Part shown: positions 7,405 through 38,847 of the stretch, one piece after another
How the letters are laid out: each line of letters opens with the position of its first letter
How positions within the stretch are numbered: the first letter of the stretch is position 1
DNA from: Snowella sp.
GTDB taxonomy: Bacteria; Cyanobacteriota; Cyanobacteriia; Cyanobacteriales; Microcystaceae
Length of the DNA: 43,011 nucleotides
Direction: 5' to 3'
NCBI GenBank assembly: GCA_003249095.1
Contig: QBMS01000017.1
Location: forward strand, 2,975-45,985
Position numbers and translations under genes: made by a program
Notes under the pieces: model-generated
What the model was told of the DNA's origin: nothing
Seen by the model: only the letters and a program-made list of their open reading frames with translations
The model's database searches: none

Positions 7405-8661
7405 ATGATAACACTAACTTACGAGTACAAGCTAATCCCAGATGACGCGCAGGTACAGGTGATTGAAGATACCTTGTCTGTCTGTCGTTCCGTCTGGAAT
7501 TTTGCTTTAAGAGAGCGCAAGGACTGGCTTTCTTCTCGTAAGTGTGATATCAATGCTTGCTCCCTTGAAAAGGAATATATTATTCCTGTCGATGCTCCTT
7601 ATCCCAATTACCATGTCCAAGCCAAGTATTTAACTGAGGCAAAGAAAACTAGCGAAAGATTAAGATCGGTCAATGCTCAGGTCTTGCAACAAGTCCTAAG
7701 AACTTTGGATAGAGCTTTTCTTGACATGAAATCAAAGAAGCTAGGTTTTCCACGTTTTAAAAATAAATACAGGATGCGCTCTTTTGTGTATCCTCAAATG
7801 CTTAAGGATTGTGTGAAAGGAAATTTGATCAAGTTGCCTCAACTGGGGTGGATGAAGTTCAGGAAGTCAAGGGATATTCCCGAAGGCTTTGAGATCAAGC
7901 AAGCAAGAATTATTAGAAGAGCATCGGGTTATTTTGTGATGCTCTCGCTTCAGTTAGATGTCAATGTTCCCGATGTACCCTTTCGTGGGCATCCATTAGG
8001 TATTGACTTAGGGCTGGATAAATTTCTGGCAACTTCTGATGGACAGCTTGTGAACAGACCCCGATTTTTAGATCGACTACAACGTGAGCTTAAATTGCTA
8101 CAACGTGGATTACGAAATAAAAAGAAAGGCTCTAATAATCGTCACAAGTTGAATCGAAGAATTGCTCGATTACACCAACGAATTTCTGATACCCGCAAAG
8201 ATTGGCACTTTAAGTTAGCCCATTCTCTTTGTGACCAAGCTCAATCAATATTTATCGAAGATATTAATTTTATATCTTGGGCAAAAGGGATGTTAGGAAA
8301 GCATACTTTGGATGCCGCTTTTGGACAGTTTGTTAATATCCTTAAATGGGTAGCATGGAAGCGAGATGTTTTTGTCGCAGAAGTTGACAAAAATTACACT
8401 TCTCAAATTTGCCCTAATTGTGAGTCTCATACAGGAAAGAAATTATTGTCTGAACGAGAACACAACTGTCCCGAATGTGGTTACAAAGCCCATCGAGATA
8501 TTGCGGCGGCACAAGTTATCAGAAATCGTGGTATTGAAAATGCGCTAGGGCATGGCGTATCTAAAAATGTCTGTGGAGACGGTCTAGCGGGGGCAGCAAT
8601 GTCTAGCAAAGAGTCTGCGAAACAGAAACTCTTAAGTGTGAGCTTAAGAATCCCCCGTTAG
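7405..8661 (+). CDS. tnpB: TnpB-type RNA-guided nuclease of an IS200/IS605 (IS1341-like) element
   Basis: This 418-residue OrfB/TnpB protein has an N-terminal helix-turn-helix region (YEYKLIPDDAQVQVIEDTL). The split RuvC core looks intact: Asp in GIDLGLDKF near residue 199, Glu in IEDINF near 284, and Asp in AHRDIAAAQVI near 363. A four-cysteine zinc finger lies between the last two (CPNC near 335, CPEC near 354). TnpB proteins are guided by an RNA from the right end of the element and cut at a target-adjacent motif. No tnpA lies beside it, so mobility would depend on a transposase in trans. The stop codon sits inside the right-end hairpin. Confidence 0.93.
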   Translation: MITLTYEYKLIPDDAQVQVIEDTLSVCRSVWNFALRERKDWLSSRKCDINACSLEKEYIIPVDAPYPNYHVQAKYLTEAKKTSERLRSVNAQVLQQVLRTLDRAFLDMKSKKLGFPRFKNKYRMRSFVYPQMLKDCVKGNLIKLPQLGWMKFRKSRDIPEGFEIKQARIIRRASGYFVMLSLQLDVNVPDVPFRGHPLGIDLGLDKFLATSDGQLVNRPRFLDRLQRELKLLQRGLRNKKKGSNNRHKLNRRIARLHQRISDTRKDWHFKLAHSLCDQAQSIFIEDINFISWAKGMLGKHTLDAAFGQFVNILKWVAWKRDVFVAEVDKNYTSQICPNCESHTGKKLLSEREHNCPECGYKAHRDIAAAQVIRNRGIENALGHGVSKNVCGDGLAGAAMSSKESAKQKLLSVSLRIPR

Positions 8662-14109: not shown

Positions 14110-14331
14110 ATGCAAACTATGAGAGTGCGATCGCTAATTGGTAAAAATGGACTTTTACAAATTCAATTACCCGAAACAACAGAAGGAACAGAATTAGATA
14201 TTATTCTTGTGTATGAATCAGCGTCACCAGCAAAAATAACAACAAAATTGAGCGATTTTTATGGTTGTATTCAAGATGAAACATTTATCAGACACCCACA
14301 GCCAGAACAAGCAGAAAGAGAGCCATTTTGA
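14110..14331 (+). CDS. VapB-like antitoxin
   Basis: A 73-residue protein immediately upstream of a PIN toxin. Its N-terminal half (VRSLIGKNGLLQIQLPETTEGTELDIILV) resembles an AbrB-like DNA-binding swapped-hairpin module. The C-terminal half (KLSDFYGCIQDETFIRHPQPEQ) would thread into the toxin. The gene overlaps vapC in an ATGATGA junction, which supports coupling. The same N-terminal module recurs in the antitoxin at 14911 with an unrelated tail. VapB function is inferred. Confidence 0.72.
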   Translation: MQTMRVRSLIGKNGLLQIQLPETTEGTELDIILVYESASPAKITTKLSDFYGCIQDETFIRHPQPEQAEREPF

Positions 14332-14735
14332 TGATTTATCTACTAGATACTAATGTCTGTATTGTTTACCTCAAGGGCAAAAACTTTCATCTAAAACAAA
14401 AGCTGGATAATATCCCACTTTCAGAAATTGCTGTTTGTTCAGTTGTGAAGGGCGAATTATTTTACGGATCAATTCGTAGTGCTAATCCAGAGCGTAATCT
14501 GACGTTACAGCAAGGATTTTTGAGTCAATTTGTGTCTTTGCCTTTTGATGACCAGTCTGCTATAATTTTCGGAGAAATTCGCGCTCAACTTTCTGCGAAG
14601 GGAACACCTATTGGGGCTTACGATTTACAAATTGCGGCTATTGCTTTAGCGAATAATTTGATCTTAGTTACTCATAATACTAGAGAATTTTCACGCATTC
14701 CCCAACTACAATTGGAAGACTGGGAAATCGAGTAA
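14328..14735 (+). CDS. vapC: VapC-type PIN domain ribonuclease toxin
   Basis: A 135-residue PIN protein. It starts IYLLDTNVCIVYLKG with catalytic Asp near residue 7. VVKGELFYG supplies the conserved glutamate near 41. GAYDLQIAAIAL supplies the third acidic residue, and the C-terminal VTHNTREFSRIPQLQLEDW is the classic end of VapC/FitB-like toxins. These cleave tRNA or rRNA when free of antitoxin. Tandem ATGs lie at 14328 and 14331; either works, and both overlap the antitoxin stop. All acidic residues are present, so it should be active. Confidence 0.9.
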   Translation: MMIYLLDTNVCIVYLKGKNFHLKQKLDNIPLSEIAVCSVVKGELFYGSIRSANPERNLTLQQGFLSQFVSLPFDDQSAIIFGEIRAQLSAKGTPIGAYDLQIAAIALANNLILVTHNTREFSRIPQLQLEDWEIE

Positions 14736-23551: not shown

Positions 23552-23595
23552 GCGAGCGATAAACCTTCCATTAAAGCGGCATTGACAATTTTAAT
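23552..23595 (-). pseudogene. 44-bp fragment resembling argD
   Basis: The 44 bases match 38960-39003 inside argD at 40 positions with no gaps. Read on the minus strand they encode IKIVNAALMEGLSLA against IEIVNAALTEGLLLA in ArgD. Nothing argD-like flanks the piece. It overlaps the last codons of znuB (stop at 23591-23593). It is a leftover of a duplicated or transferred aminotransferase gene. Confidence 0.7.
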
Positions 23596-24418
23596 AAAAA
23601 CGGCTCCAACCCAAAGCCGCTAAAAAAATCATTAACTGAGTTGTGACAATACTGGGGCCAGAGGGCAAATTTAAAGAGGCGGAAAGAACCATTCCCAGTA
23701 CAGCACTTAATCCTCCTAATCCAGAGGAAATTAAAACATAGCTGCTAAAATTTCGGCTTAACAAACGGGCTGCACAAGCGGGAATGACAACAAAGGCACT
23801 GACCAAGAGAACGCCGATCGCCTTAATAGAAACTCCGACGACTAAGGACAAAAGGACAATAAACGTGGTGCGATGGAGAGAAACGGAAACCCCACGGGCG
23901 ATCGCTAAAGGTTCATTGAGCGTTAATAACATCTGAGTTCGTAGCGTTAAGCCAATAAACAAGGTGCAAATAATTAACAATACTCCGCTAAATCCTAAAT
24001 CTAAGGCTTGTACCGCTAAAATATCCCCAAATAAGAGATTATTGATTCCTCCTTTATATTGTCCGACAAAACTCAGAGCAATGATTGCGATCGCTAAAGA
24101 GGAAGAATAAATAATATTCAGTAAGGCATCCGTCCATAATTGGGTGCGTTCCAATAAATAAGTGACACCAAGGGCAAAAAAGACCGCAAAGGGTAAAAGA
24201 ACAACCGAGGGATTGAGTCCTAACAATAGCCCGATACTAATGCCCAATAATGCCGAATGACCCAACGCATCACTAAAAAAAGATAATTGGCGTAAAATCG
24301 TAAAACTCCCCAACATTCCGCCCATTAATCCCGTTAGTACCCCACCGATCACGGCTCGTTGCATAAAGGGAAATTGAAATAGTTCAACCAGGCGAAGGAG
24401 TTCTGTTTGTATAGCCAT
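23591..24418 (-). CDS. znuB: Zinc ABC transporter permease
   Basis: ZnuB forms the inner-membrane channel of the high-affinity zinc importer. The 275-residue protein has about eight to nine helices and the family markers RAVIGGVLTGLMGGMLGSF, ALGHSALLGISIGLLLG (with the conserved His), and the coupling segment EPLAIARGVSV. ZnuC lies 12 bp upstream on the same strand. The stop lies inside a 44-bp argD-like remnant, but length and end look normal. Zinc rather than manganese is inferred from the upstream Zur-type box and His-rich ZnuA. Confidence 0.93.
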   Translation of the reverse strand: MAIQTELLRLVELFQFPFMQRAVIGGVLTGLMGGMLGSFTILRQLSFFSDALGHSALLGISIGLLLGLNPSVVLLPFAVFFALGVTYLLERTQLWTDALLNIIYSSSLAIAIIALSFVGQYKGGINNLLFGDILAVQALDLGFSGVLLIICTLFIGLTLRTQMLLTLNEPLAIARGVSVSLHRTTFIVLLSLVVGVSIKAIGVLLVSAFVVIPACAARLLSRNFSSYVLISSGLGGLSAVLGMVLSASLNLPSGPSIVTTQLMIFLAALGWSRFY

Positions 24419-24430
24419 GATCCGATGGGA

Positions 24431-25213
24431 TTACCAAGAGTTGTGAGGGGAATGGGAATGTCGGTAACGGACAAACTCCGCACCGTAGGCTTCTGCTAAA
24501 TTATGGGAGGAAAGGGCAACTTCTGGGACTCCCTGACAACGCAAGGTGCGATTCAAACACAAAACGCGGTCGCATTGTCGTCGTACCATCTCTAAGTCAT
24601 GGGAAATTTGTAAGATAGACCAATTTTGTTCCCGTTTTAGTTTTTCCAACAGTTGATAAAAATCTGATTCGCCCAGTCCATCCAAGCCAGCAGGAGCCTC
24701 ATCTAAAATCAACAAACGGCGGGGACGAACTAAACAATAGGCCAATAACACCCGTTTGGTTTCTCCTCCCGAAAGTCCACTAATCAATTGTTTTTTCAAA
24801 TGGACACTATCTACCTGGGCTAACGCTTGATATACCGCTAAACGACGCGCTTTGTAGCCCGACCAGGGTAACTGCCATCCTAAACGCTCCCAACCTAAGC
24901 CGACTAATTCTTCGACGGTAATGGGAATATGGCGATCAAACCAAAAATTTTGGGGTAAATAGGCGATCGCGTCCCGTACAGGAGCAGGGAAATGTCCTTT
25001 CTGATTCAAAGCATGACCTAAAATATGAATACTGCCCGTTTTTCGGGGTAAAATCCCTAGAATTGCTTGAATCAATGTACTTTTTCCCGCACCATTGGGG
25101 CCAATAATTGCCATATCCGTCCCTGCTTCCAAAGAAAAAGAGACATCTTGCACTGCCGCCCGATTTTCGCGATAAACCGTTAAGCCTTCAACCCCTAAGA
25201 TAATTTTTGACAA
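24431..25213 (-). CDS. znuC: Zinc ABC transporter ATP-binding protein
   Basis: The ATPase of the zinc importer, 260 residues. Walker A is GPNGAGKST (38-46), the Q-loop is YLPQNFWFDR, the signature is SGLSGGETKRVLLA, and Walker B is RLLILDEAPAGLDG, followed by ISHDLEMVRRQCDRVLCLN. The start appears to be TTG at 25213 with AGGGGG about seven bases upstream; the nearby ATG is out of frame. It lies 10 bp after znuA. Confidence 0.94.
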   Translation of the reverse strand: MSKIILGVEGLTVYRENRAAVQDVSFSLEAGTDMAIIGPNGAGKSTLIQAILGILPRKTGSIHILGHALNQKGHFPAPVRDAIAYLPQNFWFDRHIPITVEELVGLGWERLGWQLPWSGYKARRLAVYQALAQVDSVHLKKQLISGLSGGETKRVLLAYCLVRPRRLLILDEAPAGLDGLGESDFYQLLEKLKREQNWSILQISHDLEMVRRQCDRVLCLNRTLRCQGVPEVALSSHNLAEAYGAEFVRYRHSHSPHNSW

Positions 25214-25223
25214 GCCATACCCC

Positions 25224-26294
25224 CTAAAAACTAAGCAGTAAAGATTGGGGTTGTATCATCAAAAATGTTCTCGGAGAAATGATTGGCAACAACGACTGTT
25301 GGGTTTGACCCGAAAAAGCGGATTCTAGATTTTGAAGATTCTGACGCATGGTAGTTAAGTAATAATCGGGCTTTAATGCCTCCCCATTACTGGTTTCTAA
25401 CGGATCGAAAGTACTCACTTTTACCTTTAAATCCTTCGCCAAAGCCGCAAAAGGACTACCGACCGCTTGGGGTTCGGTGAGCAGCGTTTTAAGATTAGAT
25501 TGTTGGGTCGCATTAATCACTCGTTTAACATCCTCTGGGGAAGCATTTTCTTCGGGAATATCCACCAAAAATTCTGCCTTGAGATTATAGCTTTGGGCAA
25601 AATAAGGAGCGAAGTCATGGTAGGTAACAAAGGTTTTTCCCGCAAAGGGTTGCAGTTGTTGAGCAATTTCACTATCTAGTTGTTTGAGTTTTTCAATATA
25701 AGCGGTGGCATTGGTGTTATAGATGGTTTTTCCCTCTGGATCAGCCGCAATTAGTCCATCTCGAATATTTTCTACCTGTTTGATGGCTCGTTTGGGGTCT
25801 AGATAAATATGGGGGTTAAAGGCTCCATGATCGTGTTTTGCTTCCGAAGTTTTTTCATGGTCATGATCATGATGTTCGTGCTTTTCTTCATTAGCGATGG
25901 GTTGAATGTCCTTGCTAGAGTCAATCACTTTCAGATTAGCATTCCCTGCATTTTTAAGTAAATCTCCTAAAAATTCTTCCATGCCCAGACCGTTTTTGAC
26001 TAAGACATTTCCCCTAGCCAGCTTTTGAACGTCTTCTGGTTTTGCCTGATAATCGTGGGGGCCGACATTGGTGGGCAACAGTTGGGTTACTTCAGCGCGA
26101 TCGCCAACGACCGCCTTGGTAAAGTTGGTCACAGGAATAAACGTGGTAATCACTCGTAAGCGTTGGGTTTCTTCGGTAGGAGAAGCAGAAATAGTGGGAG
26201 AACCCGTTCCACACCCTCCTAGACCCATGGCCGTCAAGGAGACGAGCAGTAAAAAACAGTGACGAAGATAAGGGCCAGTTTTGAAGACAGCCAT
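25224..26294 (-). CDS. znuA: Zinc ABC transporter substrate-binding lipoprotein
   Basis: ZnuA captures zinc in the periplasm. The 356-residue precursor has a lipoprotein signal with the lipobox LGGC (cysteine 28). Metal ligands of the cluster-9 family are present: His80 in VGPHDYQ, His162 in FNPHIYLDP, His in VTYHDFAPYF near 226, and the C-terminal aspartate in VSTFDPLE. A charged His-rich loop (HEHHDHDHEKTSEAKHDH, 139-156) is typical of zinc ZnuA. It starts the znuABC operon, 36 bp from the Zur-type palindrome at 26331-26347. Confidence 0.95.
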   Translation of the reverse strand: MAVFKTGPYLRHCFLLLVSLTAMGLGGCGTGSPTISASPTEETQRLRVITTFIPVTNFTKAVVGDRAEVTQLLPTNVGPHDYQAKPEDVQKLARGNVLVKNGLGMEEFLGDLLKNAGNANLKVIDSSKDIQPIANEEKHEHHDHDHEKTSEAKHDHGAFNPHIYLDPKRAIKQVENIRDGLIAADPEGKTIYNTNATAYIEKLKQLDSEIAQQLQPFAGKTFVTYHDFAPYFAQSYNLKAEFLVDIPEENASPEDVKRVINATQQSNLKTLLTEPQAVGSPFAALAKDLKVKVSTFDPLETSNGEALKPDYYLTTMRQNLQNLESAFSGQTQQSLLPIISPRTFLMIQPQSLLLSF

Positions 26295-26330
26295 ATTTTA
26301 AGCTCGGATAATTTATGATAGAACAAAATG

Positions 26331-26347
26331 AGAATGATTATCATTCT
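26331..26347. promoter_or_regulatory. Zur-type operator between znuA and the monooxygenase-like gene
   Basis: AGAATGATTATCATTCT is a palindrome with 8-bp arms around one centre base. It is a Fur-superfamily operator. Position upstream of znuABC points to Zur rather than Fur. It lies 36 bp from the znuA start and 69 bp from the divergent ATG at 26417, so one dimer site could serve both genes. The same 17-mer occurs at 36526-36542 and, reverse-complemented, at 38749-38765. Confidence 0.85.
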
Positions 26348-26416
26348 AATTATCTTACAACGAATCGCCATCCTTGATTATTTTGTCGAACTACTGTTTT
26401 GTTCCCTTTTTTTACT

Positions 26417-27622
26417 ATGTCTGATTTCCCTTTAGATCTGCCAAAATTCATTGATTTAGCGGTTATTGGTGCTGGGCCGCAAGCTTTGACTTTAGTAACT
26501 CACTTACTCCAAAAGAAAAAATCCCTCCATCGAAAAATTTTGGTTTTTGATGCCAGTGGTGCCTGGATGAGTCGTTGGCATCATCAGTTTGCTGCTTTAG
26601 AAATTCCCCATTTGCGATCGCCCGCCGTACATCATCCTGATCCCGATGCCTATGCTCTGCGTCGTTTTGCTGAATTGCGTCCCCAGGAACTATATCCTCC
26701 CTACTCGCTCCCAGGAACGGCTTTGTTCAAGGAATTTTGTCAGGATGTGGTGAAACGTTGGCAACTCCAGTCTCGACTTGTCCCCTTAAATGTAGAAAAA
26801 TTAGAACCGATTATTGACCATTCTCGCCAATGTTTTCTGCTGAGTTTAAAAGATGGGCGATCGCTGTTGGCTCAGCGTGTTGTTTTGGCCGCAGGGAGTC
26901 ATCAGCCTAATATTCCTGAGTGGGTAAAAGAAATTCCTGCTAATTTTCCGAAAAACCGTCTTTGTCATGCTAATCAGATTGATTTACGGACTTTATCGCT
27001 TAAAAATGAACGAATATTGATTGTGGGCGGTGGTTTGACCAGTGGACATCTGGCATTGGGAGCTTTAGCGCGGGGAGCAAAAGTCGTATTAACCCATCGC
27101 CGTCAATTCCGAGAAAAATTGTTTGATTCTGATCCAGGTTGGTTGGGCCCAAAATATCTTAAAGCGTTTTGGAATGAACCCCATTGGGGTGATCGCTGGG
27201 AAATGATTCAACAAGCGCGGGATGGCGGCTCTCTGACGATGGCTGTGATGACTCAATTACGACGGGCAAATCATCGTCAACAATTACGCTTTCAAGAATG
27301 TTGTCGAGTGGTACAGGCTCAATGGCAAGAAAACTACTGGCAGGTAGAGTGTGATAATGGTACAACCCAGGAATTTGATCGCATTTGGTTAGCGACTGGC
27401 ACTCGTTTAAATGCCGAGACAGAACCCCTATTATCTTCTATGAACAAAGTCTTTCCTATTCCTCTGGTTAATGGCTTACCCGTCCTAGAACAAGATTTAC
27501 GGTGGGGAAAAAGCAACTTATTTCTCATGGGAGGATTAACCGCGTTAAGGGTGGGGCCAGCCGCTCGTAATTTGTCGGGGGGAAGAATGGCTAGTCGCTG
27601 TATTGTGCCTGCTTTAACCTGA
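26417..27622 (+). CDS. FAD/NAD(P)-dependent monooxygenase-like oxidoreductase
   Basis: About 401 residues from the ATG at 26417 (MSDFPLDLPKFIDLAVIG). Two Rossmann motifs are clear: the FAD site VIGAGPQALTLVTHLL and the second nucleotide site LIVGGGLTSGHLALGALARGA. The ATG/aromatic pattern LATGTRLN also fits. It resembles L-lysine or L-ornithine N-monooxygenase-type flavoproteins and related FAD-dependent SidA-like enzymes. Being divergent from znuA across a Zur-type box suggests zinc-responsive expression, perhaps for a metallophore or a thiol step. No NRPS or siderophore gene is adjacent, so that role is speculative. Confidence 0.8.
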   Translation: MSDFPLDLPKFIDLAVIGAGPQALTLVTHLLQKKKSLHRKILVFDASGAWMSRWHHQFAALEIPHLRSPAVHHPDPDAYALRRFAELRPQELYPPYSLPGTALFKEFCQDVVKRWQLQSRLVPLNVEKLEPIIDHSRQCFLLSLKDGRSLLAQRVVLAAGSHQPNIPEWVKEIPANFPKNRLCHANQIDLRTLSLKNERILIVGGGLTSGHLALGALARGAKVVLTHRRQFREKLFDSDPGWLGPKYLKAFWNEPHWGDRWEMIQQARDGGSLTMAVMTQLRRANHRQQLRFQECCRVVQAQWQENYWQVECDNGTTQEFDRIWLATGTRLNAETEPLLSSMNKVFPIPLVNGLPVLEQDLRWGKSNLFLMGGLTALRVGPAARNLSGGRMASRCIVPALT

Positions 27623-27823: not shown

Positions 27824-28237
27824 TCAAGAACGCAATAAAGCGATAAATCCAGCTTGCTCAAAATGTTTGTCGTATGCCAATGCTTCTAGGATATTTTGTT
27901 GTTGCATGATGCAGAATGAGGAGCAGTCGGTGTGGCTCCATGCTTGATCGGGGCGTTGCTTGTAGAGAATGAGTGCTTGTTGAAAAATACTATCGGTTTG
28001 AGATGCGATCGTAATTGCGGGATTCTCTTGTAGGCTTTCAATGAAGTTTGCAGCGGCGTATCTCAGGAAGTTGCCACGTTTAGAAAAATGATTCAGGATT
28101 TCTGTAAGTACCATTTCACTGGTGACAATTTGCACTTGAGTTAATGTAATGCTTACATTTATCGCTTTGGAGTGAAGTGTATCTTGTGGATCGAGTAGAG
28201 CGATCCAGTAGCCAGTGTCAGCAAAAACTGTTTTCAT
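27824..28237 (-). CDS. PIN domain ribonuclease (VapC-like toxin)
   Basis: A 137-residue PIN protein. The first acidic motif is FADTGYWIALLD (Asp near 7), a glutamate lies in MVLTEILNHF near 46, HTDCSSFCIM supplies an aspartate near 102, and AYDKHFEQAGF ends the domain. This is the PIN subtype usually paired with a small DUF2281-like antitoxin. The gene overlaps its upstream partner in an ATGA junction. It should be an RNase held inactive by that partner. Confidence 0.88.
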   Translation of the reverse strand: MKTVFADTGYWIALLDPQDTLHSKAINVSITLTQVQIVTSEMVLTEILNHFSKRGNFLRYAAANFIESLQENPAITIASQTDSIFQQALILYKQRPDQAWSHTDCSSFCIMQQQNILEALAYDKHFEQAGFIALLRS

Positions 28238-31255: not shown

Positions 31256-31966
31256 TCAATAGCAAACTGTCTTGAACTTAACTGTATCTGTGGCAGGATT
31301 GTACAAAACATAATTGCCCTGACCCTTTGTCCGTCCCACATTACCCACTCCCACAATACGTCGGGGAGATTTTCCTTGCTCTTGGAAAGTTTGGGGGCCG
31401 TCCAGGGTAATGATTTGGGACTGTAATTGTTTCGGCTCCACCCAACATTCAAAGGCTAACCCCGATCGCCCGCAGAAGAGGTTATTGGCATCGGCCCGAA
31501 TTAGGCGATCGCATAGTTGAATGGCGGGGGTATCCAAGGTCAGTTCATCGGCATAGCTAACCGTACTACCGTGGATGAGTAGGCAATCCAACTCATGGAA
31601 ACCAAAATGGAGTGTTCTCAACCATTGTACTAATTCCCAGTCAATACTTTCCCAAAGCAATTTAGCCCCATCAGTACCTACTTTAGCGATCAATTCTGGC
31701 GCATCTGGGGAACCCCGCAAGCCATGAAGATTCAAACATTGTTCTTCCCACCAACCCAGACAAATTTGGGGAGTTAATTCGCCAACCTTGGGAGACTGGA
31801 TACGCTCAATGATGGCCCGATTATTACCTTGCAGACCCAGAAAATCCCCCAGAATATAAAAATCACTAATGGCATTATTCTGGTGTTTAATGGCGGCTAA
31901 CACCGCTTCATAGGCCGCCAAATTGCCTTCAATACCACTACAAATAGCCCAATAACTGTTAACCAT
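31256..31966 (-). CDS. Degenerate metallophosphoesterase paralog (likely non-catalytic)
   Basis: A 236-residue member of the calcineurin-like metallophosphoesterase fold, last in the zinc operon. The standard ligand motifs are eroded: the first (DxH) reads SGIEGN (residues 10-15), GNH[D/E] reads GWWEEQ (71-76), and GHxH reads GRSG. GD (40-41) and HG in LLIHGS remain. It resembles the upstream paralog in layout (C-x-G-x-W-[D/E]-E). A role as binding partner or regulator of that paralog is inferred. It starts 53 bp behind it. Loss of function rather than a new role is possible, but the frame is intact. Confidence 0.72.
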   Translation of the reverse strand: MVNSYWAICSGIEGNLAAYEAVLAAIKHQNNAISDFYILGDFLGLQGNNRAIIERIQSPKVGELTPQICLGWWEEQCLNLHGLRGSPDAPELIAKVGTDGAKLLWESIDWELVQWLRTLHFGFHELDCLLIHGSTVSYADELTLDTPAIQLCDRLIRADANNLFCGRSGLAFECWVEPKQLQSQIITLDGPQTFQEQGKSPRRIVGVGNVGRTKGQGNYVLYNPATDTVKFKTVCY

Positions 31967-32019: not shown

Positions 32020-32832
32020 CTAACGCTGGCAGACGTGGCTAGGATCATCGGCCCGTTCCGCAAATTCCAATCCCTGGGCCAATCGCCAAGCAAAAATAGG
32101 CGGTAAACCTTTTTCGATAATGGCGGCGCAGGTGCGTTGGTAGTCATAGGGGACTTCCCGCAAGATTACCTGGGTTGTGTCCGTATCGTATAAAACATAG
32201 GTGGCATTGGGGCGACCATGACGAGGTTCTCCCACTGATCCCGCATTAACAATCCGTTTCAGGGGGATGGTGAATTGTTGATCCGTTTTACCCTCTCCCC
32301 CTTGCGCCACCCGTACAGAAATGGTTCCTCCCTTCAAATCCCGCACATAGGGGACGTGGGTATGACCACAAAATAAAACATCGGCTTCGGTGGATAAAAC
32401 CCTTTCTAAGGCGGCAAAACCATCCATGCTGGGCAGTAGATATTCGTGCTGACTGTTGGGGCTACCATGAACAAAACACAGGTTGCTTTCCTGTATTGTT
32501 AGGGGCAAGGTGGACAGGTATTCCCTTACTTCAGGGTGAATAGCCGCATTTGTCCATTCATGGGCCGCTCGACCTCGGTTTTCCGCCAGTATAGAAGGAT
32601 AACTACATTCGCAGGCATTCAGACCCTCTACAATGTCTTCGTCCCAACACCCTTGGCAGGTAGGAATATCGAGGGAGCGAATCATTTCTACCACAGCGTT
32701 GGGGTGGGGGCCATAGCCCACTAAATCACCCAGGCAATAAATTTGATCTGCTTTGTGCTGATCAATGTCCGACAAAACGGCATTAAGGGCTTCAAAATTA
32801 CCATGAATACAGGAAATAATGGCAAGTTTCAT
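32020..32832 (-). CDS. Metallophosphoesterase with altered metal-ligand residues
   Basis: A 270-residue YfcE-like phosphoesterase. The fold is clear: SCIHGNFEALNAVL (7-20), CLGDLVGYGPHPNAVVEMI (33-51), FVHGSP (120-125), CGHTHVP (155-161) and NAGSVGEPRHGRPNATYVLY. Three core residues differ from the family: Cys8 where motif DxH has Asp, Cys62 where GNHD has Asn, and Trp63 where it has His. Extra cysteines give CxxC (59-62) and CxC (74-76). This suggests a different metal or a zinc-sensing site (inference). It overlaps the upstream P-loop gene in an ATGA junction. The substrate is unknown. Confidence 0.8.
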   Translation of the reverse strand: MKLAIISCIHGNFEALNAVLSDIDQHKADQIYCLGDLVGYGPHPNAVVEMIRSLDIPTCQGCWDEDIVEGLNACECSYPSILAENRGRAAHEWTNAAIHPEVREYLSTLPLTIQESNLCFVHGSPNSQHEYLLPSMDGFAALERVLSTEADVLFCGHTHVPYVRDLKGGTISVRVAQGGEGKTDQQFTIPLKRIVNAGSVGEPRHGRPNATYVLYDTDTTQVILREVPYDYQRTCAAIIEKGLPPIFAWRLAQGLEFAERADDPSHVCQR

Positions 32833-33608
32833 CCAGTGATCGCCTCCTCTAGGGGATTCAAATTTTTGTACTGTTGTTGGTAATGGGTCAGGATTTCATT
32901 GGATAGGCAACCTTCCATGAGGGTATCGGCAATCAATTTTTGATTGAGGTTCCAACCAGCCAGTTCAATGCCGCTGAAACGCTGGGGACGGCCTTCCAAC
33001 CAAGGGTCAAGGGGTAATTCGGTATATTCAATCCCCGTCAGTCCCTGCACAAAATCAATGTAAAAAGCCCGACCGTCTGGCATTTCAAAAATTCCCTTTA
33101 ATCGTTGCAATTCCCCGTAGGCTCCCCCGGTTAATTCCGCGAGAATCATCTCTAAACTAGGGGGATCAAAGACCATTCCCGTTAACGGCGATCGCCATAA
33201 ATTGTTGGGTAAAGACTCGGCATTTTCTGGGAAGAAATCATTGCCAGGGATAATTTCGTCGGCCCAACGATGCCATTCCGAATCCGTTAAGCAGGGGGGT
33301 AAGACCGCCAAGCGACGACAGGGCCAAGGGTCAAACAGGGCTGAATTTAGATCAATATGGACACCCAGTTCACAGTAAACCAACGCATTCCGAGGCAAAT
33401 TCGTCAACCACGATTTTTCTTGGTCTCCACCAATGACCTGCACTGCGGGACAGGTATAGTTAACGTGGGCCAAGTCAACGGTGATAAGCCCCAGTCCTGG
33501 GGAAAAATAAAAAGTTGGATGGGTTGAATGCTTAAGTTGTTGGATAATCCATGTTGTTTTACCCCCACCGGATGGCCCAGCGACAACAATTAAGGAAGGT
33601 GATGACAT
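32829..33608 (-). CDS. Divergent COG0523-like P-loop protein lacking CxCC
   Basis: A 259-residue protein. Walker A is GPSGGGKTT (11-19). The middle VYCELGVHIDLN (78-88) sits where COG0523 proteins have ETTGLADP. The C-terminal LKGIFEMPDGRAFYIDFVQGL (170-190), then RFSGIELAGWNLNQKLIADTLMEGCL (210-235), resembles the CobW C-terminal domain. The CxCC zinc motif and the NKxD guanine motif of true COG0523 GTPases are missing. It may be a metal-handling NTPase that evolved from them. It sits between folE and the phosphoesterases, overlapping the latter by 4 bp. Confidence 0.62.
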   Translation of the reverse strand: MSSPSLIVVAGPSGGGKTTWIIQQLKHSTHPTFYFSPGLGLITVDLAHVNYTCPAVQVIGGDQEKSWLTNLPRNALVYCELGVHIDLNSALFDPWPCRRLAVLPPCLTDSEWHRWADEIIPGNDFFPENAESLPNNLWRSPLTGMVFDPPSLEMILAELTGGAYGELQRLKGIFEMPDGRAFYIDFVQGLTGIEYTELPLDPWLEGRPQRFSGIELAGWNLNQKLIADTLMEGCLSNEILTHYQQQYKNLNPLEEAITG

Positions 33609-33678: not shown

Positions 33679-34329
33679 CTAGTAAAAAGAAGGACTATGG
33701 CGAATTAAATTCATAAACTCATCGCGGGTTTTGGCATCATCAGCAAAAATACCCTGCATTGAACTTGTCACAGTCCAGGAGCCAGGTTTTTGGACTCCTC
33801 TCATTACCATACACATATGGGTTGCCTCCACCATGACGGCCACCCCCTGGGGTTGGAGTAATCCCTGTAAAGCATCAGCTATTTGGGCCGTTAAGCGTTC
33901 CTGTACTTGGAGTCGCCGACCATACATTTCGCAAATACGAGCAATTTTGGATAGCCCAATCACCTTACCATTGGGAATGTAAGCCACATGGGCCCGACCA
34001 ATAATCGGTAAAATATGGTGTTCACAGGAACTAAAAAGGTCAATATCTCGAATTAGTACCATTTCATTAGCATTTTCACTAAAAATAGCCCCATTCAACA
34101 GTTCATCTAAGGATTGTTGATAGCCAGAAGTCAAAAACTTTAGGGCCTTAACGACCCGTTTGGGAGTATCCCTGAGACCCTCGCGATCAGGATCTTCCCC
34201 CATCCCCAACAATAATGTTCTAACAGCAGCTTGCATTTCTGCTTCGGAAACGGGGGGAGCAGCTTGGGTAGGAAGGGCAGCGATTGCTTGGTCGACGGTA
34301 AGTTTTTGGGAAGAAATTAAAGAAGTCAT
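33679..34329 (-). CDS. folE: GTP cyclohydrolase I, type IA
   Basis: FolE opens the GTP ring to dihydroneopterin triphosphate for folate and pterins. The 216-residue protein is the zinc-dependent form: [20 protein letters not shown] gives one Cys and His ligands, HMCMVMRGV the second Cys, and [12 protein letters not shown] the substrate loop. It is not FolE2, which replaces FolE under zinc shortage elsewhere. It sits in the operon behind a COG0523 GTPase and a Zur-type box, so extra copies or zinc delivery to it under limitation are likely. Confidence 0.95.
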
Positions 34330-34403: not shown

Positions 34404-35426
34404 TTAACTGGGATAGCAAAGAGCCAACTGTTGATAAATATCAGCCCGGCTGATATTCCTCCCAATAAAAACGATTTGATTGTTGGGAGAAGAGCCAGAC
34501 CAGCCTTCAATTTCTAGGGTGCAACGCTTACCACTCAGTTGAAAGATATACTTTTGGGGACTCTGCGTAAACCAAAGCAACCCCTTGGCTCGAAAGACAT
34601 TACTAGAAAGAGTTGCTAGGAAATCTTGAAATGCTTCTAACACAAACGGATGATCGCTTTGATAGGAAATAGAGACAAAACCATCATTATCTAAATGGGA
34701 AGAATGATGGTGGTGGTGTTCATGGTCGTGGTGGTGATCATCCTGTTGGGTTTGTTCAATTTCTTCCTCAATTAAAGCGCGATAGTCCTCTGGGTGGTTA
34801 TGCCCCGTATCCAAAACTAATGGCAGGGGAACATTCGCCTTTTGACAACGAATAATCCGTGCATTTTCCTTGATTTCATTAATTTGAAATTCTAATTTAA
34901 AAAGCTTATCAGGATTGACTAAATCGGCTTTATTGAGAAGAATAATATCACTATAAATCAATTGTTTTAAAAGGGATTCGCTATCAAAAAGATTTGGCTT
35001 AAATTCCGACGCATCTACTAGGGTAATAACGGAATCTAAGTGGATAAAGTCCCTTAATTCTGTTCCTAAAAAGGTTAACATAATTGGCAAGGGATCTGCG
35101 ATACCAGTGGTTTCAATTACTAGATAATCAATGCGTTCTGTTTTTTCTAGCACATTATAAACTGCTTCCACCAAGCCGTCATTAATGGTGCAACAAATAC
35201 AGCCGTTGCTGAGTTGAACCATGTCCTGATCAACAGATGACAATAACTGGCTATCAATGTCAATGTCGCCAAATTCATTGACTAAAACCGCAATTTTAAG
35301 ATTTTGACGGTTGTTTAAAATATGATTGAGCAACGTCGTTTTACCACTCCCTAAAAAACCAGTGATGATCGTGACTGGTAAACCTCTTTTGGGAATTACT
35401 AAATCTGATGGTGAGGGATTGCTCAT
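34404..35426 (-). CDS. COG0523 zinc-metallochaperone-type GTPase with His-rich loop
   Basis: A 340-residue CobW/COG0523 GTPase. Walker A is GFLGSGKTT (23-31). The CxCC metal site is GCICC (75-79). VIETTGIADP and the guanine motif NKAD follow. A His/Asp-rich stretch near 228-243 (DDHHHDHEHHHHHSSH) separates the GTPase from the CobW C-terminal domain (FRAKGLLWFTQSPQKYIFQL). These proteins bind zinc and load client enzymes when zinc is scarce. HemB upstream and folE downstream are candidate clients. It follows hemB by 34 bp. Confidence 0.93.
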   Translation of the reverse strand: MSNPSPSDLVIPKRGLPVTIITGFLGSGKTTLLNHILNNRQNLKIAVLVNEFGDIDIDSQLLSSVDQDMVQLSNGCICCTINDGLVEAVYNVLEKTERIDYLVIETTGIADPLPIMLTFLGTELRDFIHLDSVITLVDASEFKPNLFDSESLLKQLIYSDIILLNKADLVNPDKLFKLEFQINEIKENARIIRCQKANVPLPLVLDTGHNHPEDYRALIEEEIEQTQQDDHHHDHEHHHHHSSHLDNDGFVSISYQSDHPFVLEAFQDFLATLSSNVFRAKGLLWFTQSPQKYIFQLSGKRCTLEIEGWSGSSPNNQIVFIGRNISRADIYQQLALCYPS

Positions 35427-35460: not shown

Positions 35461-36555
<1,095 letters not shown>

Positions 36556-36695: not shown

Positions 36696-37766
36696 TTAAG
36701 GAGTGTGATTGAAACCTTGACCGCGTTTTGTCTGTGACCAAATTAGAATTTCTCCATTTTCGCCCCCTGCGATGAGTTGCTCTCCCCTTGGATGCCAACT
36801 GAGACAGGAAAAGCCCTGAGATACGCCCTTTAACGATTGGATTAATTGTTTACCCCGATGCCAGAGATAAACCCGACCATCCTGACCCGCAGAGGCTAAT
36901 AGGGTTTTTTGGGGTTGAAACGCGATCGCGGTAACTTTTTCGCTATGTCCTGTAGTCTGGCTTGACCAACCCACAAAATCATTTTGCTCCCGTTGCCAAA
37001 TAACAATCTCTTCCCCACTGCTTACGGCCAGAAGGGGATAACCTTGGGAGGGGACTTGACACCAGGCGAGTTGCTGTACTTTACCCAGAAATCCCTGCAT
37101 TAACCAGGGACTAGGATTGCCCCATTCATAGAGAGTTAGGGTGCTGTCTAAGTTGCCACTGGCGAGATACTTTCCGTCAAAAGACCAGGCGATCGCGACG
37201 CTTGCTGAAGGAATCTCTAAAACAGTGGGTTCCGCCTCCCAATTCAATGCGTCCCATACTTGCACACCTTGATAACCTGCGATCGCCAAATAACGACCAT
37301 CTCTACGCCAATCCAAGGCTAAGACAGAAGATGCTTCAAAATTACGGCTAATCACTATTTTTTGTGACGTGGCATCCCAAACATGAACCCTTTTCCCCAG
37401 ACTATAGGCCAACTGATTTTGGCTCGGATTCCAAACCAGGCGATCAATCCAAATCTTTGGATACTCCAAGGTTGTCATTAATTCGGGCAAACCGTTATTG
37501 ATTTTCCAAATTTGTAGTTGCCCATTTTGACCCGCTATGGCTAAGAAGTTGCCATCCTGGGAAAAAGCTAAACAATCCACTGACTGTCCTGTGCTTCCTT
37601 GATGAATAATTTCTTCAAAGGTTGTCGCAGAAAATAAGCTGACCTCTCCACCTCCCGAAGCGGCAGCCCAAAGTTTGCCATCAGGGGAATGGGCGATCGC
37701 CGTTACATAATCCGATAACTGCCCCTGCCACCGTAATTGAAAATCGATAGAGATTTTTGTTTTCAT
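36696..37766 (-). CDS. WD40-repeat protein coupled to the second COG0523 gene
   Basis: A 356-residue protein with seven or so WD40 repeats forming a beta-propeller. Units include [99 protein letters not shown] and [19 protein letters not shown]. The ATG at 37766 makes an ATGA overlap with the COG0523 stop; an ATG three codons earlier is less neat. No catalytic domain is visible, so it probably scaffolds. A link to zinc is inferred from the operon. Confidence 0.85.
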
Positions 37767-38734
37767 ACCAAACAATCCCGAAATCCTTCTTTTAATTGCA
37801 TTTCGTCTAAATTACGACCAATAAAAACCAGTTCATTTTTGCGGGTTTCTTGGGGATACCAAGGGCGATCGGCTTTACCATCAAACAGCATATGAACCCC
37901 TTGAAAAACAAAGCGGTTCTTTTCTCCCTGAATACTGAGAATGCCCTTCATCCGAAAAATATCTGGCCCCTGATTGCGTAGGAGTTCACTAATCCAGCTA
38001 TTGAGCTTTTTAGCGTTTAAATCACCCGATTCAACAATGGTGACAGAAATCACGGTTTCATCATGTTGGTGGGCATCTTCACCTAAAATTTCGGGGTCAA
38101 TTTCTAGGGCATGATCCAAGCTAAAGGCTTCTATGCCCAGAATTTGATCAATCTCAATATTGGCATCGTAGGTCGGATAAAGTTTAGCCATCACGTTCAT
38201 AGACTGAATCTTCTGTTTCAGATTTTCCAAGGCTTGAGTTGACACAAGATCGGTTTTGTTGAGCAAGATGACATCGGCAAAGGCGATTTGTTCTTGGACT
38301 TCTTCGGAGTCCCAATGTTGATCGATATGTTTGGAATCGACAACGGTAACGACCGAATCTAACAAAGTCTGCGATCGCACATCTTCATCCATAAAAAAGG
38401 TCTGAATCACAGGAGCAGGATCGGCCAGTCCAGTAGTTTCGATGACTAAATGATCAAATTTATCCCGTCGTTTCATCAGATTCCCAATGATGCGAATCAA
38501 ATCACCCCTGACAGTACAACAGATACAGCCGTTGTTCATTTCAAAAATTTCTTCTTCAACATCAATCACTAACTGATTGTCAATGCCCACTTCTCCAAAT
38601 TCGTTAATAATAACGGCAACTTTTTTGCCATGCTCATGGGTCAGGATGCGATTGAGTAGGGTCGTTTTACCTGCTCCCAAGTAGCCTGTTAGAACGGTCA
38701 CGGGAATGGGGGCTTGGCGATCGCTTAAAGTCAT
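37763..38734 (-). CDS. Second COG0523 GTPase, Zur-box controlled
   Basis: A 323-residue COG0523 GTPase. Walker A is GYLGAGKTT (17-25), the metal motif is GCICC (69-73), then [10 protein letters not shown], and NKTD. It lacks the long His run of the 34404 gene; only DAHQHDE remains before the C-terminal domain. The C-terminus ([33 protein letters not shown]) is typical. The Zur-type box sits 15 bp upstream. It is translationally coupled to a WD40 protein. Confidence 0.92.
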
Positions 38735-38748
38735 AGAGTCCTCTTTTA

Positions 38749-38765
38749 AGAATGATAATCATTCT
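38749..38765. promoter_or_regulatory. Zur-type operator upstream of the second COG0523 gene
   Basis: AGAATGATAATCATTCT is the reverse complement of the other two boxes and differs only in the centre base. It lies 15 bp upstream of the ATG at 38734. The 38735-38847 gap also carries the end of argD and nothing else that I can name. Confidence 0.85.
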
Positions 38766-38847
38766 CAAATTATAGACAAAAAATACCGCCGTCAAATACT
38801 TTTTGTTATTGTGAGCCTTTGACTAAGCGGTTCTTGAAGTTTTGGTT

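Follow-up and report, generated by a model that had tools for sequence, protein, structure and literature searches.

A phosphoesterase-fold protein with cysteines at two metal-ligand positions in a putative Zur-controlled cassette of cyanobacteria

We describe a protein of the calcineurin-like metallophosphoesterase fold, denoted MPP1, in which cysteines occupy two metal-ligand positions throughout a cyanobacterial subclade, and which is encoded, together with two partner genes, PLOOP and MPP2, in a cassette found across many cyanobacteria. The explanation that fits best, and that we would put somewhat short of an even chance, is that MPP1 is the core of a Zur-controlled zinc-starvation cassette, namely, a zinc- or thiol-handling protein that works with its two neighbors. 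The window, that is, the whole stretch of DNA that was analyzed, spans 43,011 nucleotides of a Snowella sp. contig (QBMS01000017.1) and contains the following features of MPP1 and its partners.

32020..32832, minus strand: MPP1 (270 aa), of the calcineurin-like metallophosphoesterase fold, two metal-ligand positions being occupied by Cys
32809..32811, minus strand: Cys8 codon (Asp in canonical relatives), Cys in 123/123 frames
32644..32649, minus strand: Cys62-Trp63 codons (Asn-His in canonical enzymes), Cys-Trp in 123/123 frames
32605..32613, minus strand: Cys74-Glu75-Cys76 codons (CxC, common to Car1-like ars-operon relatives), both Cys in 123/123 frames
32029..32067, minus strand: codons 256-268, C-terminal tail with invariant E256, D263, H266, and C268 (from alignment rows)
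32829..33608, minus strand: PLOOP, Walker A NTPase-like protein with a CobW_C-like C-terminal domain, upstream of MPP1 with a 4-nt overlap
31256..31966, minus strand: MPP2, second, decayed MPP-fold protein (SGIEGN, LGD, GWWEE, HGS, GRSG), downstream of MPP1

The fold, the altered pocket, and its conservation

The frame of MPP1 runs on the minus strand from an ATG start at 32832 to 32020; the plus strand of 32020-32832 has stops all along. An earlier note on this DNA gave the coordinates and the changes in the motifs correctly; it overlooked both partner genes as well as the invariant tail. By fold and profile, MPP1 belongs to the calcineurin-like metallophosphoesterase superfamily: it matches Pfam Metallophos_2 (PF12850) with 84 bits, against a cut-off of 27, and stays below the NCBIfam cut-offs for the YfcE and PRK09453 phosphodiesterase families (50.9 vs 117 and 29.3 vs 56.25 bits, respectively). 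The full ligand set of metallophosphoesterases is DxH - GD - GNH[DE] - H - GHxH. In MPP1, with the motifs SCIHGN (C8), LGD (D36), QGCWDED (C62, W63), VHGS (H122), and CGHTH (H157, H159), this set is incomplete, C8, C62, and W63 being present in all 123 distinct frames that were compared and GD, HG, and GHTH being retained; two cysteine pairs are added, CxxC at 59-62 and CxC at 74-76. Following the standard metallophosphoesterase scheme, we take Cys8-His10-Asp36-His159 to be one predicted metal site and Asp36-Cys62-His122-His157 to be the other.

The AlphaFold2 model of MPP1 has a mean pLDDT of 84.9 and a pTM of 0.84, with the lowest confidence at 72-76 and 258-270, two stretches that both contain invariant Cys or His. 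The top match of the model in a PDB fold search is a Sphaerobacter metallophosphoesterase, 3rqz (Z 28.1, rmsd 3.2, 219 aligned), which is also the best solved sequence (E 7.6e-38) but has the normal Asp and Asn-His, is without the CxC, and ends short of the tail. Further matches are 2gju and 1nnw (both Z 27.6) and 3qfm (Z 26.4, 228 aligned), titled "Streptococcal asymmetric Ap4A hydrolase and phosphodiesterase Spr1479/SapH", which shares with MPP1 the fold and Trp at the His63 column (it has Asn-Trp at columns 62-63) but retains the Asp and Asn ligands and lacks the CxC and a matching tail in the aligned part. For MPP1 and PLOOP alike, the PDB fold searches gave a clue to function no sharper than that from sequence.

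The homologs of MPP1 comprise 154 frames above 150 bits in 206 loci, with 123 distinct frames, a few of which are possibly one gene cut differently at locus ends. Identical in 123/123 are Cys8, His10, Cys33, Asp36, Gly61, Cys62, Trp63, Asp64, Asp66, Cys74, Cys76, His122, Cys155, His157, His159, His205, Asp263, His266, and Cys268; Glu65 and Cys235 follow with 122/123, Gln60 with 112/123, and Cys59 with 110/123. The core residues are found in 112/112 rows of a separate, smaller alignment, and E256, A258, E259, D263, H266, and C268 of the tail in 92/92 rows (proteins containing X and near-duplicates were excluded from the alignments). Part of the set came from a contig scan with six peptide words, one of them containing GCWDED, of which the best 80 of 185 places were kept; word-free protein searches of whole genomes gave no exception to the fixed residues among the loci listed. 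The earlier note had allowed that homologs might carry the normal Asp, Asn, and His, which would mark the changes as a mutation of one strain; instead, Cys8, Cys62, and Trp63 are fixed in the subclade. Its picture of four paired cysteines holds for the CxC and only in part for the CxxC, which is not fully fixed because position 59 is Cys in only 110 frames.

The taxonomic span of the homologs extends from relatives of Synechocystis to Prochlorococcus; among the best 80 of 185 places, the closest named relative is that of Synechocystis salina LEGE 00031 (92% identical). All are cyanobacterial by title or class except those on three marine MAG contigs (61% identity), titled Blastopirellula (L106, L109) and Spirochaeta (L107), which look like mislabelled picocyanobacterial contigs. 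An origin from phages or viruses was considered and rejected: one distant match (26.8% identity) was obtained among 50,697 phage records, and none was confirmed in viral contigs.

The distinctive features of MPP1 emerge from a comparison with 31 outside relatives, a small, hand-picked sample of 17 plasmid proteins and 14 other cyanobacterial phosphoesterases. Position 8 is Asp in 28/31 and Gly in 3/31, and position 62 is Asn in 31/31, so that Cys at both is special to MPP1 within this sample. Loss of His63 is common, given that His is retained in only 16/31 (the rest are 10 Tyr, 2 Thr, 2 Glu, and 1 Trp). The change to Trp, listed in the earlier note, is thus unremarkable on its own, and we discarded Trp63 as proof of lost catalysis, with His63 missing in 15/31 relatives and Trp present in SapH. 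Nor is the CxC a zinc invention of MPP1, as had been supposed: it occurs in 10/31 relatives, seven of which lie within or close to ars operons, always 12 residues past position 62, the same spacing as in MPP1, and is accompanied by Tyr63 in 10/10 cases, against 0/21 of the relatives without CxC. In the columns of the tail, Cys at 268 is found in 0/31 and His at 266 in 1/31. As far as aligned residues can tell, then, Asp8-to-Cys, Asn62-to-Cys, and the invariant tail with His266 and Cys268 are what is specific to MPP1. The tail might bind a partner or, alternatively, C74, C76, H266, and C268 might form a third metal site.

Three other cyanobacterial genomes (L180, L181, L182) encode a phosphoesterase-fold protein of another kind, with a CxC (CGCGY), GNYD, and Gly, Tyr, and Gly at the positions of Asp8, His10, and His159. 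The gene beside it is about 80% identical in all three genomes (neighbors in L199-L201) and, by eye, transporter-like, with no Pfam match; in one genome, ergothioneine-type genes lie near the protein, again by eye.

The partner proteins and the cassette

PLOOP resembles the COG0523/CobW zinc chaperone GTPases in combining a Walker A motif, in which G14, G16, K17, and T18 are invariant, with a CobW_C-like domain, and in residing in zinc islands with true CobW genes. The copy in the window has no Pfam match at 0.001, CobW_C falling below the Pfam cut-off (17.1 vs 22). Across the family, CobW_C is matched in 64/65 members at E up to 0.1 (best 5.9e-9), hhalign to CobW yields a probability of 90.8 over the C-terminal domain, and the best PDB sequence match is the GTPase YjiA (E 0.002). 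The model of PLOOP (pLDDT 91.4) retrieves in its top rows mostly generic P-loop NTPases (Z 8 to 10), the YjiA row having Z 8.4 and rmsd 15.5. PLOOP differs from the COG0523 proteins in being shorter, in having no NKxD in its consensus, and in lacking their CxCC metal motif, given that the alignment contains no invariant or nearly invariant Cys, which weakens the case for a role of PLOOP itself in metal transfer. MPP2 has no Pfam match and aligns with MPP1 at an hhalign probability of 99.9; most of its members have SG for SD, GWW for GNH, and GRSG for GHTH.

The cassette, across many cyanobacteria, is well supported. The order PLOOP-MPP1-MPP2 is found in 96/111 loci, which are partly redundant because the whole-genome and contig searches can include the same species; among the 15/111 exceptions, 12 have PLOOP-MPP1 without MPP2 directly behind, two of these 12 with MPP2 in front, and some reflect cuts at contig ends. 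In 388 genomes of the cyanobacterial class, a strong MPP1 is present in 144, PLOOP in 151, a strong MPP2 in 151, and all three in 135 (counts that ignore shared ancestry); MPP1 occurs without PLOOP in 5 genomes, PLOOP without MPP1 in 12, MPP1 without MPP2 in 4, and MPP2 without MPP1 in 11. For these counts, 20 genomes with an MPP1 match weaker than ~1e-21 and 10 with an MPP2 match weaker than ~1e-19 were scored as lacking the respective gene; for PLOOP, a match of up to 1e-5 sufficed, so that remnants count as present. The best MPP1 match is partial in each of the five genomes (G188, G206, G217, G247, G291) that have MPP1 and lack PLOOP.

A fusion of PLOOP and MPP1 in one 529-codon frame (L088 7230-8816, the same as in genome G329) looks like a frameshift, the normal ending of PLOOP being replaced at the join, and was therefore set aside as evidence. 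Two PLOOP-MPP1 pairs stand in tandem in one locus (L050), and two MPP2-matching frames, perhaps one broken gene, in two others (L056 and L031).

Zinc genes and Zur-box-like sites around the cassette

Upstream of PLOOP, and elsewhere in the window, zinc-type genes and Zur-box-like sites are found.

33679..34329, minus strand: folE, GTP cyclohydrolase I (PF01227, TIGR00063)
34404..35426, minus strand: CobW/COG0523 GTPase with CxCC and a His-rich stretch (Pfam)
35461..36513, minus strand: hemB (PF00490), first gene of an inferred six-gene transcription unit
36524..36538, no strand assigned: Zur-box-like near-perfect palindrome TGAGAATGATTATCA in front of hemB (motif scan)
26329..26343, no strand assigned: Zur-box-like palindrome, the hemB box again, between znuA (minus) and an FAD/NAD(P)-binding gene (plus) (motif scan)
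38753..38767, no strand assigned: Zur-box-like palindrome, the hemB box on the other strand, in front of a second cobW (37763-38734, minus) (motif scan)
23591..26294, minus strand: znuB, znuC, znuA type zinc-uptake genes (ABC-3, ABC_tran, and ZnuA Pfam matches over cut-off)

From hemB onward, the gaps to cobW, folE, PLOOP, MPP1, and MPP2 are 34, 74, 70, -4, and 53 nt, respectively. With up to 3 mismatches, the window contains 11 Zur-box-like matches, against a shuffle mean of 4.45 and with 11 reached in 1/100 shuffles. In the best 80 of 185 places, after exclusion of the loci with less than 1 kb upstream (5/80), a Zur-box-like site lies within 6 kb upstream in 50/75 named loci, where 1.5 are expected; after exclusion of those with less than 200 nt upstream (3/80), again from the best 80 of 185, 28/77 other loci have a site no more than 200 nt from the gene that opens the cassette, where 0.06 are expected, compared with 48/3395 control slices of the same zinc-gene-rich loci. 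The cassettes of L106 and L109 are identical and were both counted in the two scans. No such site was found within 6 kb in 25/75 loci, 15 of which fall within L092-L111, a set of 20 loci whose titles are mostly picocyanobacterial. The source genome has three FUR-family genes. As judged by these motif scans, Zur-type sites at the cassette are well supported, and Zur probably binds there; "Zur-controlled", which had been a guess in the earlier note, gains support, as regards a setting of the Zur type, from the Zur-box-like sites.

Several other genes in this neighborhood deserve mention. The FAD/NAD(P)-binding protein gene at 26399-27622 has its Zur-box-like site in common with znuA, and in PCC 7117, a gene with the same annotation adjoins the cassette divergently. 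The window also encodes a TnpB-like protein (7405-8661, OrfB_IS605 and Cas12f1-like TNB domains) and two proteins with a PIN domain (14328-14735 and 27824-28237, the second just under the Pfam cut-off).

Published data touch on the cassette at several points. The cassette is intact in Picosynechococcus PCC 7117 and Trichormus variabilis ATCC 29413. In Picosynechococcus PCC 7002, it is broken on plasmid pAQ7 (L115 23717-25488): what remains of PLOOP is its first 147 residues (99% identity to PCC 7117), behind which come a non-cassette gene and then the C-terminal part of MPP2, and no intact MPP1 was found in this stretch. The pAQ7 genes hemB-II, folE-II, G0131, and G0132 are reported to be up in a zur mutant and with TPEN, and G0129 ("phosphoesterase") and G0130 to show no rise in the zur mutant (PMC4628125). 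By gene order, the truncated PLOOP, the inserted gene, and the MPP2 end probably correspond to G0131, G0130, and G0129, respectively, although the sequence record has different locus tags; so read, the rise of G0131 supports Zur control of the cassette indirectly, and the broken cassette would offer an explanation for the uneven response in that study. In two further papers, the adjacent Nodularia genes nsp29340 and nsp29350 are listed as metallophosphoesterases under phosphate acquisition (PMC3610870), and synw0968, synw0972, and synw0973 of Synechococcus WH8102 as uncharacterized Zur-repressed genes (PMC9337993). The Nodularia pair may be MPP1 and MPP2, and the WH8102 genes are a possible mention of the cassette in print that went unrecognized.

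Zinc handling, thiol chemistry, or hydrolysis

In the scenario that we prefer, the two-metal phosphoesterase pocket would have been rebuilt, with Cys replacing one Asp and one Asn ligand at the two predicted sites. When zinc falls, Zur would leave its site, and PLOOP, MPP1, and MPP2 would be made; MPP1 would hold zinc on thiolate and imidazole ligands, PLOOP would drive the loading or hand-over of this zinc at the expense of NTP, with its missing CxCC supplied by MPP1, and MPP2 would serve as a non-catalytic partner. The known Zur-controlled replacement proteins usually lose zinc-binding Cys or other ligands; a Zur-controlled protein that gained zinc ligands is more readily seen as a zinc handler than as a substitute that spares zinc. 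Furthermore, two thiolates in the pocket would favor zinc, and the CobW-like partner suggests NTP-driven hand-over. On this reading, MPP1 would bind zinc, would have lost ordinary hydrolysis, and would form a complex with its partners and take part in NTP-driven transfer. A more elaborate version of this scenario makes the phosphoesterase fold a carrier or insertase for zinc: MPP1 would store or pass on zinc through a Cys/His site, the CobW-like NTPase, having lost its own metal motif because MPP1 supplies the metal site, would provide the power, and MPP2 would be a scaffold. This version strikes us as doubtful.

The main rival takes MPP1 for a Car1-like thiol redox enzyme, in which the pocket would bind an oxyanion or a phosphorylated substrate, Cys74 and Cys76, perhaps with Cys8 and Cys62, would perform two-electron chemistry, and control by Zur would reflect a need for the reaction when zinc-dependent enzymes fail. 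Car1 is a reported arsenate reductase of Rufibacter tibetensis that requires Cys74 and Cys76, and a Paraclostridium ars-operon protein, about 40% identical to it, is reported to have both of these essential cysteines (PMC12124457); by context and residue numbers, the latter is probably the plasmid protein with Cys74 and Cys76 in our sample. MPP1 has in common with Car1 and its ars-operon relatives the fold family, the CxC at 74/76, and the loss of the catalytic His; moreover, seven of the ten outside relatives with the equally spaced CxC are plasmid genes, six of which directly adjoin ars genes and the seventh, from Hymenobacter, has an ArsR-type regulator gene cluster as its neighbor and arsB two genes beyond. 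In a Mucilaginibacter ars relative, a second phosphoesterase stands directly behind the first, as in the MPP1 locus. The occurrence of the CxC in arsenate reductase-like relatives implies that the thiols of MPP1 may be redox-active rather than zinc ligands, and for the CxC, we regard thiol redox chemistry as being as open as zinc binding. However, the seven ars-linked plasmid relatives have GNYD with normal Asp8 and Asn62, whereas MPP1 has GCWD and Cys8, and MPP1 differs further from the Car1 type, as described in print, in its Trp instead of Tyr, its His/Cys tail, its CobW-like partner, and its Zur-box-like sites. In the three intact MPP1 loci on plasmids that were inspected, the annotation shows no neighboring ars gene, and zinc-type genes are near many other MPP1 loci. 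In a tree built without the trait columns (position 8, positions 62-63, and columns 70-79), a branch (97/97) separates MPP1 and MPP2 from the other relatives; a common clade of MPP1 and the CxC group is neither recovered nor rejected (p-AU 0.395 with MPP2 and 0.212 without). On balance, the Car1-like explanation seems unlikely, although it is the strongest competitor of zinc handling. As an aside, Bacteroidota plasmids carry tandem phosphoesterases (L174 1501-2993; L138 1-1038), a parallel to the MPP1-MPP2 pair; in L174, a CxC/GNYD protein is followed by a GNHD one, behind arsB.

Ranked after it, and in our view rather improbable, is an ordinary hydrolase, a phosphodiesterase or nucleotide polyphosphate hydrolase, that is tuned to bind zinc more tightly when zinc is low. 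Asp-Cys-His zinc sites are known in hydrolases, e.g., in B1 metallo-beta-lactamases, and such tuning would be compatible with the pocket of MPP1: the seven predicted ligand positions are all metal-capable, such that hydrolysis might persist, GD, HG, and GHTH remain in place, the closest folds are MPP proteins, with 3rqz and SapH among them, and Trp63 recurs in SapH, a protein titled hydrolase. Against this stand the replacement of two classic ligands and the general acid in every member, the loss of even more of the motif in the neighboring MPP2, and a genomic context that gives no hint of a substrate. Random loss of the active site in a strain-specific or decaying gene can be dismissed for practical purposes: most of the phosphoesterase motif is gone from MPP2, and some genomes contain remnants of the cassette, but the changed positions of MPP1 are identical in 123/123 frames, and among the three proteins, MPP1 shows the highest conservation, with a mean column identity of 74% vs 44% and 51% for the partners (the choice of rows differing).

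The fold, the Zur islands, the CobW-like proteins, and one reported phosphoesterase that evolved a redox function are already known. A cassette with Cys at two metal-ligand positions is not described in the open-licence literature that we searched; subscription papers may contain such a description. How cells share scarce zinc is poorly known, and a widespread, apparently Zur-controlled cassette bears on this question. If the zinc carrier or insertase version of the preferred scenario is true, cyanobacteria, from Prochlorococcus to filamentous forms, would possess a three-part machine for the allocation of zinc. With the MPP1 cassette, it can be tested directly whether an ancient phosphoesterase fold is able to become a device for handling metals or electrons.
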